In this document: positions 46,351-52,230 of the stretch, piece after piece
Layout of the letters: the number at the start of each line of letters is the position of its first letter
Position numbering within the stretch: position 1 is the first letter of the stretch
DNA from: Bacillota bacterium
GTDB taxonomy: Bacteria > Bacillota > Negativicutes > Sporomusales > CTSoil-080
Direction: 5' to 3'
Assembly: GCA_017889635.1 (NCBI GenBank)
Contig: JAGGAC010000001.1
Location: 124,001 to 188,000 of the forward strand
Length of the DNA: 64,000 nucleotides
Made by a program: the position numbers and the translations under genes
Notes under the pieces: model-generated
The model's input: only the letters and a program-made list of their open reading frames with translations
What the model was told of the DNA's origin: nothing
The model's database searches: none

Positions 46351-47151
46351 ATGCTTACCGCAGTTGAGTATCTAAGACCAGTTGGCTTTGGGGCAACTTC
46401 GCCGCAGCTTTTTCGGGCCGATGACGGCAAAAGTTATGTTGTTAAATTACAAAATAATCGGTTGGGTCCCAGGGTGCTTGCCAATGAGTTACTTGGAACC
46501 CGCTTGGGTGAAAGGCTAGGTCTGTGTTTTCCACCAGGAGGAATTATAAAACTGGATGACCGATTGATAAGGAAAAGCAGGATACTGTCCAATGCTCATG
46601 TCAGCCCAGGGAAGCATTTTGCCTGCCAATATCTAAATGGTACTCAGTATCTCTGCGTTCACAACCTTCATAAGGCAATCAACAAACCGGAAATGGCTGG
46701 AGTAATGTTGTTTGATCATATGCTACATAATCTTGACAGAACTATGAATCGGCGAAATCTTTTGCTGCGTCGCGAAGAGCATGGTTATAAAATTTATGCC
46801 ATCGATAATTCGCACTTATTCCGCAGTGCGATATGGTCTGAAGAGCGGCTAAGAAGGCTGGCTACACGTATTCAGGTAAACCATCAACGATCTTATGGTG
46901 CCTTGTTGAAAAAATTTTTGCGCCCGGCGTATTTTGAAACATATTTTGCTAAAGTTAAGGATATTTCAGATGGCGAATTTCAGGAACTGGTAGCAACAAT
47001 CCCAACGGAATGGCTACCGCATGCTAGTGAACGGGAAACGTTATGCCAGTTCCTGAGTGCACGACGCGATATGGCAGAAGAGATCATAACATGCTTATGC
47101 TCGTTAATTCCGAATAAACACAGGTGTTCCAACATTGACCAGGGAAAATAG
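46351..47151 (+). CDS. HipA_2-type kinase-like protein
   Basis: I place the start at ATG 46351, after AAAAAGGGGG. The 266-residue protein fits the HipA-like family PF20613: YVVKLQNNRLGPRVLANELL (nucleotide-binding Lys and Asn), RLGLCFPPGGIIKL, GKHFACQYL, then MLFDHMLHNLDRTMNRRNLLL with the catalytic NxDR and YAIDNSHLF with the DN metal pair. Whether it phosphorylates protein or lipid is unknown. Its last 48 bp overlap, on the opposite strand, the truncated ykuD. Confidence 0.82.
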   Translation: MLTAVEYLRPVGFGATSPQLFRADDGKSYVVKLQNNRLGPRVLANELLGTRLGERLGLCFPPGGIIKLDDRLIRKSRILSNAHVSPGKHFACQYLNGTQYLCVHNLHKAINKPEMAGVMLFDHMLHNLDRTMNRRNLLLRREEHGYKIYAIDNSHLFRSAIWSEERLRRLATRIQVNHQRSYGALLKKFLRPAYFETYFAKVKDISDGEFQELVATIPTEWLPHASERETLCQFLSARRDMAEEIITCLCSLIPNKHRCSNIDQGK

Positions 47152-47225
47152 TTCTTCTACGTTATGGTTATGCATGCGGATGCAGCCGTTGGATACCATT
47201 GAACCGATCGCCCAAGGCGCATTTA
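47104..47225 (-). pseudogene. 3' fragment of an L,D-transpeptidase (ykuD) gene interrupted by the prophage
   Basis: The minus strand from about 47225 to the TAA at 47104 reads NAPWAIGSMVSNGCIRMHNH, then NVEELFSLVNVGTPVFIRN. That is the end of a YkuD-type L,D-transpeptidase, with the catalytic SxGCxR motif and the following NxDVxxLF and GTPV. The upstream half (including the HGT motif and earlier domain) is missing: it is replaced by the serine-recombinase gene. The stop lies in the hipA-like 3' end. The missing 5' part should be at the far end of the element, outside the window. Confidence 0.85.
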
Positions 47226-47232
47226 AAATCAC
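47212..47232. other. Prophage/host junction (att site)
   Basis: Host homology (N-A-P-W of YkuD, AATGCGCC at 47218-47225) ends just where the recombinase stop codon (47229-47231) begins. Serine integrases recombine at a 2-bp core within such a junction. The exact core cannot be found without the other end. Confidence 0.7.
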
Positions 47233-48743
47233 ACGTTCAAAGTCCAGGTTATTTTATAATCTGGCTTTACCCTTGTACTCATAGTGCCTGTTCGTTTATC
47301 CGTTCTTACAACCGTGATCTTAGAAAATACTGCGTGTATAATTAGGGCTTTTTCTTCCTCGTCCAGGTCGCCCCGCTTTACTACGGCACTGAACTGTTCA
47401 AACAATCCCGCCGCATCGACTTGTTGCGGTTGTGGCTCGATGACAGTTTTTCTTTTTTGTATATCGTCAAGCTGTTGTTTGATCTGTAATAATTCTGCTT
47501 CTGCCTCTTGCTCTGATACCATTTGCTGCCGGAACCAACGTGCTAATATTTCCCTGCGCTTAATTAATTCCGACTCTAATTTTATCAGCCGATCTATTTC
47601 TTTTGAATCAGCAACAGGCTCAACTTTTGGCAGGAACTTCTTAAATCCATTAGGTTTATTAAAAGCTTTTAATACTTCATGCCACAATACTTCATCAAAT
47701 GATTCTGCGGGGATAGTTCTGCTTTGGCATTTGATCCCGGCGTTACGATAATTAACCGAAATCTGGGTGGCGCAGCGGTAATATGGTTTGCGGGTATCGT
47801 TAAATACATTTTGATGTACTGTCATCCTGCGACCACAAAGGCCACAATAGAGGATGCCGGACGCTAGATAAGGATAAAAGTATTCTCGCTTGCGTATTGT
47901 TTTGTGTTGTTTTAGCTGTTTTTGCACTCGTTCAAAAGTTACTTCGTCTATTATTACCGGTATAGGTATACTTACCCACTCATCTTCAGGACGTTCCATC
48001 ATTATTCGTTTGTTTATCCCTGACTTTTTATATCGAGTTTTCATGCTGACAAAAGTCCCGGTGTACGATCTGTTTGTCAAAACTCTGTGCAAAGTTGATG
48101 CCGACCATTGCGGTTTGCCTGTAGGTGATAATATTACTTTTGCCCTAAGAGCGCGTTGCAGACCTGATATGCTTAGTTGCTCGTTAAGGTAAGTATTATA
48201 TATCTCTTTTATTATGTTGGCCTGTTCCTCATTGATAATATAACTAAAGTTTTCTGCATCATAGGTATATCCGTAAAGGCCAAAATCCTGTATTATTTTC
48301 CCTTCGGTCGATTTGCGACGTTTACCTCTCATCGACCTGTCCAATATCTTTGCTTTTTCATACTCCGATATAGCTCCGCGCATAGAAAAGAACAGCTTGC
48401 CTTCGGGGGAGGCGTCATAATCGCCTGTACAAAAGTGCAGTGGGGTTTTAGCTAGTTCTAGTTCATTGGCTATAAGTAACTGAATTGAAAGGTTACGCGC
48501 CAGTCTGTCCGGGTCATAGACGATAACAAGATTAATTCTGCCGGCTGCAATGTCTTCGCGCATACTTGTAAGCGCGGGCCGATCTATAAATTCTCCGCTG
48601 TATCCATCATCAACAAACTCTACAGTGTCTGTAATCCCCATTCCCAAAAGACGAGTGCGGCATGTTGCTATTTGGTCAGGCAAAGAATAACCGGCTCTTG
48701 CTTGATCTTCTGTTGATACCCTTGCATATATAGCTGCTCTCAT
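47229..48743 (-). CDS. Large serine recombinase (integrase)
   Basis: This is the integrase of the element. The start ATG at 48743 follows GTGGTGA. The 504-residue protein has the N-terminal resolvase domain with catalytic Ser10 in AIYARVSTEDQ, later YDPDRLARN with the catalytic Arg, a recombinase domain (about 160-270), a zinc ribbon (CGLCGRRMT and CQSRT) and a coiled coil (KEIDRLIKLESELIKRREIL). Large serine recombinases integrate at one site and need a directionality factor for excision. It sits directly against the interrupted ykuD, as phiC31- or SpoIVCA-type elements do. Confidence 0.95.
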   Translation of the reverse strand: MRAAIYARVSTEDQARAGYSLPDQIATCRTRLLGMGITDTVEFVDDGYSGEFIDRPALTSMREDIAAGRINLVIVYDPDRLARNLSIQLLIANELELAKTPLHFCTGDYDASPEGKLFFSMRGAISEYEKAKILDRSMRGKRRKSTEGKIIQDFGLYGYTYDAENFSYIINEEQANIIKEIYNTYLNEQLSISGLQRALRAKVILSPTGKPQWSASTLHRVLTNRSYTGTFVSMKTRYKKSGINKRIMMERPEDEWVSIPIPVIIDEVTFERVQKQLKQHKTIRKREYFYPYLASGILYCGLCGRRMTVHQNVFNDTRKPYYRCATQISVNYRNAGIKCQSRTIPAESFDEVLWHEVLKAFNKPNGFKKFLPKVEPVADSKEIDRLIKLESELIKRREILARWFRQQMVSEQEAEAELLQIKQQLDDIQKRKTVIEPQPQQVDAAGLFEQFSAVVKRGDLDEEEKALIIHAVFSKITVVRTDKRTGTMSTRVKPDYKITWTLNV

Positions 48744-48860
48744 AATTATCACCACTTTAATATAAAATAAAAAGCCGTTGGATACACCAACCGGCTTTTG
48801 TTATAATGGTTTTTGGGAGAGGGGCAATCTCTCCCAAACTGAATAGAGGAGGTGGTCACT

Positions 48861-48953
48861 TTGTGGATTTCTCCACGCGTGATTGTCTGGTTAATTATCG
48901 CTGTAACGATAATTTTACTTAGACCAGATCATATCACGTTTTGGCTTAAATAG
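48861..48953 (+). CDS. Putative small membrane peptide, 30 aa
   Basis: A TTG start (48861) follows AGGAGGTGG with 5 bp spacing. The product, MWISPRVIVWLIIAVTIILL then RPDHITFWLK, has a single membrane helix. Upstream is a TATAAT (48802-48807), a hairpin (48770-48799) and another 8-bp inverted repeat (TTGGGAGA/TCTCCCAA). A terminator lies 18 bp after the stop. The compact transcript with structured leader resembles a type I toxin or a small phage membrane effector. Confidence 0.5.
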   Translation: MWISPRVIVWLIIAVTIILLRPDHITFWLK

Positions 48954-48970
48954 CCTCGCCTATTCAACCG

Positions 48971-49000
48971 AACGTCCTGTTATCAGCAGGGCGTTTTGGT
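48971..49000 (+). terminator. Intrinsic terminator
   Basis: AACGTCCTG/CAGGGCGTT (one G-T pair) with a 7-nt loop, followed by TTGGTTTTAT. Confidence 0.75.
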
Positions 49001-49076
49001 TTTATATTATATACCCATTATAACTAAAGTATTCCCGGTTGTAAAATATTTAATAATTGAAAAGGAGTGATTTACT

Positions 49077-49238
49077 ATGCTTAAAACAAGAAGCGGAGTT
49101 ACTATTTTAGGGTCGGCAGATGATCCTAGATTGGCAGCAGAATTTAAAAAAATGCTTGGAGCTGCTAAGAAAGAGAAATTGGATCGTCAACAGGATTCTT
49201 ATAAACAGCGTTTACTTTCTCGCCAGGAATCCTACTAA
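49077..49238 (+). CDS. Small charged protein, 53 aa
   Basis: ATG at 49077 lies 7 bp after AAAGGAGTG. The product is MLKTRSGVTILGSADDPRLA, then AEFKKMLGAAKKEKLDRQQD and SYKQRLLSRQESY: soluble, helical and Lys/Gln-rich. The last 74 bp overlap the minus-strand gene at 49165 in antisense. I do not recognise the family. Confidence 0.5.
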   Translation: MLKTRSGVTILGSADDPRLAAEFKKMLGAAKKEKLDRQQDSYKQRLLSRQESY

Positions 49239-49425
49239 AATATTGTGGATCTAGCGGAACCATATAAGCGGGCTTTTCCGTACCGTCAGTTTGCTGTTGC
49301 CACTCAAAGACAAGATGAGGAATTTCATCAATATAAATAGTGTCAACAATAGCAACTAAACTTTTCCCCGCCCGTTTAACAATGCATTGAGTTTTTAACA
49401 CTTCATATTCAGTTTCATTATCCAT
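49165..49425 (-). CDS. Uncharacterised 86-aa protein
   Basis: The start follows AAAGGAGAA. The product (MDNETEYEVLKTQCIVKRAG, DTIYIDEIPHLVFEWQ) is a soluble beta-rich protein with no signal peptide. It is the last gene of a five-gene minus-strand run that otherwise encodes membrane and exported proteins. Its 3' end overlaps, in antisense, the 53-aa gene. The family is unknown. Confidence 0.55.
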   Translation of the reverse strand: MDNETEYEVLKTQCIVKRAGKSLVAIVDTIYIDEIPHLVFEWQQQTDGTEKPAYMVPLDPQYFSRIPGEKVNAVYKNPVDDPISLS

Positions 49426-49452
49426 TTTTATTTCTCCTTTATCTCCTATTAT

Positions 49453-49767
49453 TTACTGGTTTCTTTGAGTAAGTTTCCCGTACTCGCAATAAGCTCTATT
49501 GTAGAGGTTTACGAAATTGCCTAAAAGTCCTCCTAGTAGCCACACTAAAGTCATTACCCACAAGAAACCAGTATACCAAGGCGTTAAAAAATAAGATAAT
49601 GCTAAAGCTATTATAAGCGTTATGGGGTTAATAAAAATCAAAAGTTCGCCACCGGCAATTAGCAATATACCTGCAATTATCATTAAATAGTCAATACCGC
49701 TTATATATCCAACGAGAAATAGAATAGCCCCAATTGTATTACTAATAAGTGAGAATAAAAAATACAC
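49453..49767 (-). CDS. Membrane protein, 104 aa
   Basis: Three or four membrane segments: FSLISNTIGAILFLVGYISG, LMIIAGILLIAGGELLIFIN, PITLIIALALSYFL and FLWVMTLVWLLGGLLGNFVN. The start follows AGGAGGGT. It is in the cassette between integrase and repressor. No family is recognised. Confidence 0.65.
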   Translation of the reverse strand: MYFLFSLISNTIGAILFLVGYISGIDYLMIIAGILLIAGGELLIFINPITLIIALALSYFLTPWYTGFLWVMTLVWLLGGLLGNFVNLYNRAYCEYGKLTQRNQ

Positions 49768-49790
49768 AGTACCCTCCTAAACGTATTTAT

Positions 49791-50024
49791 CTATGGTCTG
49801 CACACTTTGCATGGTTCATAGCCTTTTTTTATAGCCTCTTCACGAGTAGAAAAAGTAATTTTATTTCCTGCTGAAATTTTATGCGCCCATTGACAGTCTG
49901 GCCTATGGAACTTAGCAGAAGTTGAACTGGCGACATACGCAGCCTGTGATGACTGGGTTGGCGTGGTTGTCCCACACCCTGTTAATAATAAGGTAGTAAG
50001 AAGTATAAGTGCCAATCGTTTCAT
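49791..50024 (-). CDS. Lipoprotein with Ada-like zinc motif, 77 aa
   Basis: A lipobox LLLTGC (Cys at residue 17) follows a short signal peptide, so the mature protein is lipid-anchored. The C-terminal half, SAKFHRPDCQWAHKI then GYEPCKVCRP, fits the Ada-type metal-binding domain (C...C..C) that appears in small secreted and nuclease-associated proteins. One Cys plus CxxC and a His could bind Zn. It starts after GGAGGAA. In a prophage, an outer-face lipoprotein of this kind may act in superinfection exclusion; that is inference. Confidence 0.75.
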   Translation of the reverse strand: MKRLALILLTTLLLTGCGTTTPTQSSQAAYVASSTSAKFHRPDCQWAHKISAGNKITFSTREEAIKKGYEPCKVCRP

Positions 50025-50035
50025 AATATTCCTCC

Positions 50036-50293
50036 CTATGGCATACTTGTTACATCAACATCTAATGGCGTATTAGTTATTTCTACAGATATAGGCTCAT
50101 TTAATTGAGCGTGAGCAAGAGGCACTTTTAATGATAATTGTTTCTTTAGTTCTGGCTGTTTGGCGTTTACGAAATCCCCATAAGTCGGAGGTTTATTGAT
50201 AAAAGTGCCAATAATTTGAACAAATAAAATGCCAGCTAATAAAATGCAGACTGTTAAGCGAAAACTGTTATCGCTCACCGAAATCAACTCCAT
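50036..50293 (-). CDS. Membrane-anchored protein, 85 aa
   Basis: One N-terminal membrane segment (LTVCILLAGILFVQIIGTF) is followed by about 50 residues outside the cytosol (KQPELKKQLSLKVPLAHAQL). The first 26 bp overlap the upstream gene in another frame, so they are coupled. The function is unknown. Confidence 0.6.
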   Translation of the reverse strand: MELISVSDNSFRLTVCILLAGILFVQIIGTFINKPPTYGDFVNAKQPELKKQLSLKVPLAHAQLNEPISVEITNTPLDVDVTSMP

Positions 50294-50744
50294 TATTATC
50301 TTGTTGTGATGATTTCCTTAAATCTAGATAACTTTTAATTCCTGCGCCGACCCCAAATATTATAGAAATGCCGAGCGAAGAAAACTCTAATTGATGTATC
50401 TTCTCGTTAACATTATTTATCAGAGTTGTTAGTTCTTGTTTTGATGGATTATGGCCGTTGGGATATTCAACAGAATAATTATCGCCAAAATCGTCTGGTA
50501 TAGGTATATCTAGTTTGAGCAAAGTAAGTTCTGCTTCTTTTTGTTTAATTTGCATTTGCTTATCTGCTAGTTCATAATTGGCTATTTCTTCATCGGTAGG
50601 TGGATATAAATTTAGTTTATCAGAATAAGCTGCTTCTAAACGGGTAATATCCTCATGATAATAGCTCCAAGCAAAAGGAAAAGTAACTATTAGACATACG
50701 ATAAAAAATAAAATCCCGTGTGCAAATGCAATTTTCTTTGTCAT
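50268..50744 (-). CDS. Membrane-anchored coiled-coil protein, 158 aa
   Basis: The start ATG (50744) follows GGAGGAGGG. Residues 8-28 and about 128-143 are membrane segments; the loop between (ADKQMQIKQKEAELTLLKLD) is a charged coiled coil of about 90 residues. It is the first gene of the minus-strand cassette, 20 bp from the switch-like palindrome region. The function is unknown. Confidence 0.6.
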   Translation of the reverse strand: MTKKIAFAHGILFFIVCLIVTFPFAWSYYHEDITRLEAAYSDKLNLYPPTDEEIANYELADKQMQIKQKEAELTLLKLDIPIPDDFGDNYSVEYPNGHNPSKQELTTLINNVNEKIHQLEFSSLGISIIFGVGAGIKSYLDLRKSSQQDNNGVDFGER

Positions 50745-50765: not shown

Positions 50766-50820
50766 AGACACGGCTTGTCCAATTTGCCGTGTCTATTTAT
50801 TTTGACTTGCTAGTCAAAAT
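50766..50820. promoter_or_regulatory. Hairpin and 9-bp palindrome between cassette and HTH gene
   Basis: AGACACGGC/GCCGTGTCT (50766-50794) is followed by ATTTTGACT/AGTCAAAAT with a 4-bp spacer (50799-50820). The second contains TTGACT on the minus strand, so an operator over a cassette promoter is likely. Confidence 0.55.
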
Positions 50821-50834
50821 CATACCTCCTTTAA

Positions 50835-51083
50835 ATGTTGATTTTGTATACTATTGCAATCACATTTAAGGTTAGGTGTTGTATTATTATTTATCATATT
50901 TATTGCAGTGATTGGAGAAAGAAAAAAGGGTGGACACAAGAAGAGTTAGCTATAAGAGCGGAGATAGGCCCGTCAACAATCGGCGAAATAGAGACATACC
51001 ATAAAAGACCTAAGTTTGATGAGGTTGTCAAAATCGCCAATGCCTTGGGCATAACCGTAGAACAATTACAACAGAAACCTTAA
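50835..51083 (+). CDS. XRE-family HTH protein (N-terminus uncertain)
   Basis: From about residue 26 the sequence DWRKKKGWTQEELAIRAEIG, STIGEIETYHKRPKFD and IANALGITVEQLQQ is a clear Cro/CI-type helix-turn-helix. The first 25 residues are unlike HTH proteins, and no good Shine-Dalgarno site precedes the ATG at 50835; the true start or a frameshift may lie near 50900. It faces the minus-strand membrane cassette and could regulate it through the 50799 palindrome. Confidence 0.6.
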   Translation: MLILYTIAITFKVRCCIIIYHIYCSDWRKKKGWTQEELAIRAEIGPSTIGEIETYHKRPKFDEVVKIANALGITVEQLQQKP

Positions 51084-51174: not shown

Positions 51175-51231
51175 ACTCCCTATACCCAAATTTAGGCTAC
51201 TTCAAAGGGTTGGCATATGGGTATAGGGAGT
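51175..51231 (+). repeat. 14-bp inverted repeat enclosing the start of a small gene
   Basis: ACTCCCTATACCCA (51175-51188) is exactly complementary to TGGGTATAGGGAGT (51218-51231), with 29 bp between. The right arm covers the ATG and first codons of the gene at 51217, and the loop holds its AAAGGG site, so the fold could block translation. Confidence 0.7.
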
Positions 51232-51351
51232 GATGCTATCTATATAAATTTAGTCGAATTACTATTCGTAGCTTTGCATATTCTTTTAGACTTTGCACTA
51301 ATATTTCTTCCAATTTTTACATTGATTCAAAGGAATTTTGGCGGTCAATGA
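51217..51351 (+). CDS. Putative small membrane peptide, 44 aa
   Basis: ATG 51217 lies 8 bp after AAAGGG. The product MGIGSDAIYINLVELLFVAL, then HILLDFALIFLPIFTLIQRN is almost all membrane helix, with a short polar tail. The start codon is in a long inverted repeat (51175-51231), which suggests a leader that folds back, as in type I toxins. No antisense antitoxin RNA is proven. Confidence 0.5.
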   Translation: MGIGSDAIYINLVELLFVALHILLDFALIFLPIFTLIQRNFGGQ

Positions 51352-51408: not shown

Positions 51409-51507
51409 GTGGGTGATTCGAAGAATACTGATACTCTTGAATTGTTGGGAAGATTATTATTAGATCAAATTATTACGAAGAAGAAAGCTTTGAAAGCGAA
51501 TCAATAA
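51409..51507 (+). CDS. Small protein, 32 aa
   Basis: A GTG start lies 8 bp after CGGAGG. The product is MGDSKNTDTLELLGRLLLDQ then IITKKKALKANQ. Its end overlaps the 3' end of the repressor gene by 35 bp in antisense. The strong site favours translation; the function is unknown. Confidence 0.4.
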   Translation: MGDSKNTDTLELLGRLLLDQIITKKKALKANQ

Positions 51508-51892
51508 TTAATCCTAGAGCTTTCCGGTGTTCAGCCGGAAGGCTTTTTAATTTGCCGAGGAGTTCAACTAATTCTTTTTCTTGTTCATCGGCTGACATTT
51601 TTAATAAATCTTGATAGGCTTCTTTTTCTTCTTCGTTCATTTCCATAGTTTTATATTTTTCCATAATCTGAGGTAGCAAATTAGCTGCCTCAGATTTATT
51701 ATCGTCAAACTCAGACATCGAAACGCCAAGAGCTTGCGCTATTTTTTGAAGAGTAGCAGTTGTTGGAGATGGATTTTTGCCAGATTCTATTTGGCTAATT
51801 CTTCCTTGACCAACTCCCGCTTCCTTAGCAAGCCGATATTGTGACAAGCCCCTTTTTTCTCTTAGTTCAATAATCTTCTTGCCAATATTCAT
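51473..51892 (-). CDS. CI-like phage repressor
   Basis: The start ATG (51892) follows GAGGTG; upstream in-frame codons to 51934 lie in the operator region. The 139-residue protein has an N-terminal HTH (IIELREKRGLSQYRLAKEAG, GQGRISQIESGKNPSP) and a helical C-terminal domain (EEEKEAYQDLLKMSADEQEK), without the S24 peptidase domain of LexA-type repressors. It is divergent from the Cro-like gene at 52018, with shared operators. It likely maintains lysogeny; induction would not use RecA self-cleavage. Confidence 0.85.
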   Translation of the reverse strand: MNIGKKIIELREKRGLSQYRLAKEAGVGQGRISQIESGKNPSPTTATLQKIAQALGVSMSEFDDNKSEAANLLPQIMEKYKTMEMNEEEKEAYQDLLKMSADEQEKELVELLGKLKSLPAEHRKALGLIIDSLSKLSSS

Positions 51893-52017: not shown

Positions 52018-52230
52018 ATGAAACTACAAGAGCTATTAAAGAAGCTTATGATAAAACAAAATGTTTCACAATATCGTCTTGGAAAAAATTCTGGCGTTTC
52101 TCAAGCCCAAATATCGCGGATTTTGCAAGGGCAACAACCGACAGTACCGACACTTGAAAAAATAGCATCAGGGCTTGGTGTTAGTGTATCCGAATTGATC
52201 GGCGAGAAACCACAGCGAAAAACTGGATGA
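52018..52230 (+). CDS. Cro-like HTH regulator
   Basis: ATG 52018 lies after AAAGGGGGG. The 70-residue HTH protein reads MKLQELLKKLMIKQNVSQYR, SGVSQAQISRILQGQQPTVP and IASGLGVSVSELIG. It is the first gene of the rightward early operon and shares the operator region with the CI-like gene. It presumably turns off the repressor after induction. Confidence 0.85.
   Translation: MKLQELLKKLMIKQNVSQYRLGKNSGVSQAQISRILQGQQPTVPTLEKIASGLGVSVSELIGEKPQRKTG

Follow-up and report, generated by a model that had tools for sequence, protein, structure and literature searches.

What do the five small genes lying between the integrase and the repressor of this prophage of an anaerobic Bacillota bacterium do for the phage or for its host? 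Genes in the repressor-integrase slot are usually expressed in the lysogen, and an earlier note on this DNA had suggested a superinfection exclusion or defence role for them. We examined the five genes, named P1 to P5, and the elements around them; all positions are those of the window, that is, the whole stretch of 64,000 nucleotides that was analysed.

Prophage and layout of the cassette

The genes belong to a prophage of ~43.5 kb that extends from about 47229 to about 90780 in window numbering, its right end lying beyond the window. The prophage interrupts a gene whose 3' part occupies 47104-47232 and whose 5' part runs from 90784 onward (L010), and which reads from its sequence as L,D-transpeptidase-like. 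As for the attachment core, the longest word common to both prophage ends was 8 bp. The integrase, repressor and cro-like genes confirm that the region is a lysogeny module, with the following features:

47229-48755, minus strand: large serine integrase at the left prophage end (Resolvase, Recombinase and zinc ribbon; Pfam PF00239, PF07508 and PF13408; PHROG 95 integrase, 1.4e-94)
48779-49045, plus strand: type I toxin-antitoxin-like element between integrase and cassette, separate from the cassette (30-aa peptide 48861-48953, terminator 48970-48996, predicted antisense promoter 49045-49017)
49165-49425, minus strand: P1, which closes the cassette; soluble protein of 86 aa, orphan (Shine-Dalgarno AAAGGAG; codon score positive in this frame alone)
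49453-49767, minus strand: P2, polytopic membrane protein of 104 aa with about 3 transmembrane (TM) helices, orphan (Shine-Dalgarno AGGAGG, GTG start)
49791-50024, minus strand: P3, 77-aa lipoprotein (lipobox LLTGCG) with the Ada-like zinc module HRPDC...PCKVC (H40, C44, C72, C75)
50036-50293, minus strand: P4, single-TM envelope protein of 85 aa, orphan, overlapping the 3' end of P5
50268-50744, minus strand: P5, which opens the cassette; membrane protein of 158 aa containing long helices
50766-50794, no strand: perfect 9-bp stem with an 11-nt loop, in the cassette leader
50799-50820, no strand: 9-bp palindrome ATTTTGACT-4-AGTCAAAAT, between the HTH gene and the cassette
50835-51083, plus strand: divergent Cro/CI-type HTH gene, start uncertain (PF01381, 2.7e-13; no Shine-Dalgarno)
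51473-51892, minus strand: phage repressor, HTH_3 (PF01381, 2.1e-17; PHROG 8, 1.7e-20)
52018-52230, plus strand: Cro-like HTH gene, divergent from the repressor (PF01381, 1e-13)

The cassette consists of five minus-strand genes at 49165-50744, between the serine integrase and the repressor, and the order, positions and characters given for them in the earlier note all proved correct. From P5 through P4, P3 and P2 to P1, the successive gaps are -26, 11, 23 and 27 bp, which gives the cassette the form of one transcription unit. Good Shine-Dalgarno sequences precede P1, P2, P3 and P5; P4 has none at its listed ATG, and its Shine-Dalgarno is better placed for a GTG at 50278. A codon-usage score trained on other genes of the prophage preferred the stated frame in all five cases, weakly for P2 and P3. 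Every product except the soluble P1 is predicted to reside in the envelope.

The leader of the cassette contains two perfect stems, of which the palindrome at 50799-50820 is a candidate operator. Within the 164-bp stretch concerned, a perfect 9-bp stem arose in only 0.65% of dinucleotide shuffles and two stems in none of 2,000. An HTH gene and a 9-bp palindrome had both been placed at the head of the cassette; the palindrome is real, but the HTH gene is encoded on the other strand, pointing away from the cassette, and its N-terminus is uncertain because no Shine-Dalgarno precedes the listed start.

Small elements were also seen at either side of the cassette. A 53-aa open reading frame (ORF; 49077-49238, plus strand) runs antisense to the 3' end of P1, with the Shine-Dalgarno AAAGGAG and a positive codon score, and matched no family in Pfam, PHROG, NCBIfam or PADLOC. 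Between the HTH gene and the repressor lie a 17-nt inverted repeat (94%; 51175-51231) and two small plus-strand ORFs (51217-51351 and 51409-51507), the first encoding 44 hydrophobic residues and the second 32 residues, with a good Shine-Dalgarno and a terminator after it.

An Ada-like zinc module in a lipoprotein

The earlier description of P3 as an Ada-like zinc-motif lipoprotein is upheld by the lipobox, a Pfam Ada_Zn_binding (PF02805) score of 30.8 bits against a cut-off of 23, and the fold of the model. The AlphaFold model reached a pLDDT of 97-98 over residues 31-77, and the four best PDB matches in Foldseek were all Ada N-terminal domains (probability 0.99-1.00, best E 2.6e-3, with 1u8b at the top). 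The model thus indicates that the Ada zinc fold is kept in P3, which is the sole PF02805 protein of its genome.

P3 and the Ada N-terminal domain (PF02805; PDB 1u8b, 1zgw and 1adn) have the same predicted fold and the same spacing of the zinc motif, whereas P3 is predicted to be extracytoplasmic and has neither an effector nor a DNA-repair domain. With no further domain, it lacks the architecture of a cytoplasmic DNA-binding regulator. The Ada motif FCRPSC reads FHRPDC in P3, which replaces the methyl-acceptor cysteine by histidine; all 16 aligned sequences have histidine at this position and keep the other three cysteine ligands. Because the methyl-accepting cysteine is a histidine, P3 is not a methyltransferase, and its identification as an Ada repair enzyme was ruled out.

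Conservation of the cassette genes

The other four genes were searched for in three collections: 380 genomes from the class of the host, 50,697 phage records, and IMG/VR. None of the three contained a relative of P1, P2 or P4. The sole IMG/VR match in these searches, contig 3300033406_000399, agreed with the window at every one of the 7,668 bases compared and represents the same prophage, so that it provides no independent evidence. In P5, a first TM helix (TM1) is followed by a helical loop and probably by another TM helix at the C-terminus; its predicted structure was of low confidence and gave no significant fold match in BFVD. One relative of P5 was found, a protein of 298 aa with 34% identity over 147 residues (E 4e-24), which stands alone between the serine integrase and the S24-type repressor of a distant prophage (G019/L015). 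A scan of genome contigs with the P5 alignment gave no match.

These comparisons do not support the view that the five genes are conserved together: only P3, at the family level, and P5, through one relative, are kept in position. We rejected a conserved five-gene system since none of the collections searched contained the full set a second time, the outcome that the earlier note had named as refuting its suggestion. What is homologous is how the slot is used, and not which genes fill it. Because P1, P2 and P4 are orphans, a part for them in any joint function is unsupported.

The earlier statement that no known exclusion or abortive-infection system can be recognised here held up against PADLOC and NCBIfam. 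In PADLOC-DB, P1, P2, P4 and P5 had no match and P3 had only one, with E 0.004 and covering its first 47 residues, while no cassette protein matched NCBIfam above cut-off. Searches of Pfam, PHROG, NCBIfam and PADLOC found no nuclease domain in P1 to P5.

Recurrence of the P3 family between repressor and integrase

We searched IMG/VR for DNA coding for GYxPCKVC, a query that uses sequence only and is blind to gene context, and called integrases and repressors around the hits with purpose-built HMMs and staphylococcal-nuclease-type (SNase) domains by single-pass search. The hits formed 28 groups of Ada-like proteins at 80% identity, or 27 without the phage of the window. In nine of these 27 independent viral groups (L052, L055, L061, L063, L065, L074, L077, L079 and the L096 group), the gene lies co-directionally between repressor and integrase. 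One further group, L084, has it directly before an integrase where the sequence examined stops, and four (L050, L051, L066 and L081) have a repressor upstream, with the sequence examined ending soon after.

Assuming that half of all genes are co-directional, 1.1, 1.8 and 2.6 groups would be expected in slots of 2.1, 3.5 and 5 kb, respectively. The corresponding probabilities of nine or more groups are 3.5e-7, 2.4e-5 and 3.9e-4, values that are approximate because groups at 80% identity are partly related and L074 was already known from the search with P3. Among bacterial-genome loci retrieved with the same query, an integrase was close by in only one of 28 (L029), and L047-L049 were left unclassed by the motif test.

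Slots of this type are flanked by integrases of both classes, serine and tyrosine. A relative from IMG/VR (L019) has an S24-type repressor to one side and a serine integrase to the other and adjoins a two-TM protein, and the exceptional bacterial locus (L029, a metagenome-assembled genome) reads repressor, TM protein, small membrane ORF, 89-aa Ada-like lipoprotein and tyrosine integrase. Short P3-type genes generally adjoin small membrane or anchored proteins (L019, L029, L063, L079, L096 and L050), and the four-TM partners in L079 and L096 are homologous to each other (E 1e-9). In the slot the module is also found C-terminal in larger proteins, namely SNase-Ada fusions with a multi-TM anchor (L065 and L096) or a lipid anchor (L084), and an MBL-fold hydrolase on a TM anchor (L055). 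Taken together, these sequence comparisons indicate that P3 is a member of a recurrent family of phage cargo.

The slot of L096 (L096:10676-13095) holds both forms at once ahead of the integrase, an Ada-like lipoprotein standing alone and an SNase-Ada protein in the membrane; between the two lies a gene for a secreted protein resembling copper-amine-oxidase-N and transglutaminase domains.

Two cultured phages, Aeribacillus AP45 and Anoxybacillus A403 (L118 and L119), place a membrane SNase in the same slot, in the order repressor, ImmA peptidase, membrane SNase, two small genes and integrase, with one extra gene between ImmA peptidase and SNase in A403.

A toxin-antitoxin-like element beside the cassette

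The element at 48779-49045 is arranged like a type I toxin-antitoxin locus and may form a new family. It occurs in 21 of 380 genomes of the class and 14 of 102 genera, some with two copies (further copies are L107-L117). Its parts are a promoter whose -10 is conserved, a 5' hairpin with arms that covary across species, GGAGGTG, a 30-aa hydrophobic peptide (MWISPRVIVWLIIAxTIILLxPxxITxWLx) and a terminator; a conserved ATTATA reads as the -10 of a predicted antisense promoter. The predicted RNA fold has an energy of -82.4 kcal/mol (z -7.7). The element had no match in Rfam, Pfam or NCBIfam, and an Rfam search of the region gave nothing significant.

In the L107 prophage, a copy 85% identical to that of the window is likewise enclosed by an HTH repressor and a serine integrase. 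A locus at L115:1480-1784 combines the same RNA scaffold with a different 29-aa peptide, MRLETKWFRIEVSLADLLAMIKVIVNLFR, which looks like an exchange of the coding portion. A cas6-like identity for genes beside chromosomal copies had no Pfam support and was dropped.

Proposed function and alternatives

The reading we favor, with a probability of about 40%, is that the cassette is envelope cargo acting at DNA entry, most likely in superinfection exclusion, as suggested by sequence comparison and by analogy with described systems. The five genes would form a lysogenic-conversion cargo operon with its own leader and candidate operator, presumably expressed in the lysogen. P3 would be its key member, holding the Ada-like module either on the outward side of the inner membrane or in the periplasm. 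Anchored by lipid or TM helix and accompanied by small membrane proteins, a module of this type would touch the DNA of an arriving phage or its injection apparatus; P2, P4 and P5 might form or position a complex with P3, and the DNA of the second phage would not be delivered. The position beside the repressor indicates a benefit to the lysogen, and the surface nuclease and MBL hydrolase fusion partners make extracytoplasmic DNA the likely object. From recurrence in the slot of unrelated phages together with the nuclease fusions, we infer that P3 probably helps to bar foreign DNA from the host. The exclusion or defence role raised earlier is thus strengthened by the recurrence of P3-type genes in the slot and by a zinc module common to surface nucleases, but not in the form of one joint conserved system.

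Three known systems bear on this reading. Ltp of the Streptococcus thermophilus phage TP-J34 is a lysogeny-module lipoprotein that blocks DNA injection (PMC3952083); like P3 it is small and located outside the cytoplasmic membrane, but P3 has an Ada-like zinc module and no Ltp family appears among its listed Pfam and NCBIfam matches. SNIPE of Escherichia coli, a nuclease in the membrane, cleaves DNA while it is being injected (PMC13190303). Its proposed site, DNA entry at the membrane, would be the same as that of the cassette, whereas its cytoplasmic DUF4041 and GIY-YIG domains were not reported in the cassette. The prophage surface nucleases of the YokF/SNase type (SPbeta, AP45 and A403) resemble P3 in being anchored, extracytoplasmic and near an integrase. 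Slot relatives of P3 include SNase-Ada fusions, while the window cassette has no SNase domain, and the C-terminal module of the nucleases YokF, AP45 and A403 is of the Excalibur type rather than Ada (by Pfam for AP45 and A403, by similar C-terminal sequence for YokF).

We also considered a broader proposal, which we hold only tentatively and think somewhat unlikely to be right as a whole. Temperate phages of anaerobic Firmicutes may have put a methyltransferase-dead Ada zinc module to new use, as a catcher of DNA or tail anchored at the surface. It would serve a modular form of superinfection exclusion, either on its own in a lipoprotein that has small membrane partners or in fusion with SNase or MBL nucleases, and typically in the repressor-integrase slot.

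The cargo could instead benefit the lysogen in another way, through extracellular DNA as a nutrient, metal handling or envelope maintenance, with P3 a surface zinc- or DNA-binding lipoprotein unrelated to exclusion. The HCCC zinc module is also present on many chromosomal secreted proteins, most of them nucleases or other secreted enzymes, and is therefore not by itself a sign of defence; in Bacillus subtilis, YokF and YncB serve extracellular DNA metabolism (PMC3929857). The phage-borne copies, however, are strongly confined to the lysogeny slot, which suggests lysogeny-linked selection, and we regard this explanation as unlikely.

The surface nucleases raise a further possibility, that the prophage is protected from curing by anchored Ada-like proteins which, whether or not they carry a nuclease, would stop or degrade incoming DNA if the host is naturally transformable. 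YokF of SPbeta, a lipoprotein SNase adjoining the serine integrase, lowers transformation about tenfold, and other mobile elements act likewise, for example through the CJIE DNases of Campylobacter jejuni (PMC4774983). The host encodes ComEC, but P3 has no nuclease; for our cassette we judge anti-transformation improbable.

We give equally little credence to five unrelated morons gathered one by one in a permissive slot and lacking a joint function. The five genes are indeed not conserved together, the relative of P5 is alone in its slot and the neighbours of P3 relatives differ. Against this, the cassette shows tight operon spacing and an overlap, and short Ada-like lipoproteins in the slot are generally flanked by small membrane or anchored proteins.

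Finally, spanin-like, holin-like or other lytic-cycle genes misplaced in the lysogeny region are very improbable, since the weak PHROG similarity of P3 to Rz-like spanins lies mainly in the lipoprotein signal peptide (for which a spanin or lysis role for P3 was rejected), none of the five genes has a convincing lysis-gene match, and the cassette adjoins the repressor and runs opposite to the early and structural genes.

Implications

Superinfection exclusion by envelope cargo remains our preferred reading. The Ada-like family of the repressor-integrase slot, together with its nuclease-fused forms, appears to be a new variant of known exclusion and conversion cargo. In the freely accessible literature searched, we found no paper that connects lipoproteins of the Ada-like kind with the lysogeny module.

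Cargo of the lysogeny module is among the chief sources of defence by one phage against another, and it is poorly recognised because its proteins are short and fast-evolving. The anchored H-x3-C...C-x2-C Ada-like signature marks such cargo across unrelated phages with both integrase classes and may provide a handle for finding these systems. An intracellular repair and regulatory domain is here reused outside the cell, with its catalytic cysteine gone. The fusion of the module to surface nucleases gives a definite prediction of the step attacked, namely DNA entry. Because AP45 and A403 are cultured and carry a membrane SNase in the slot, the question is testable, and these phages would be good experimental models.
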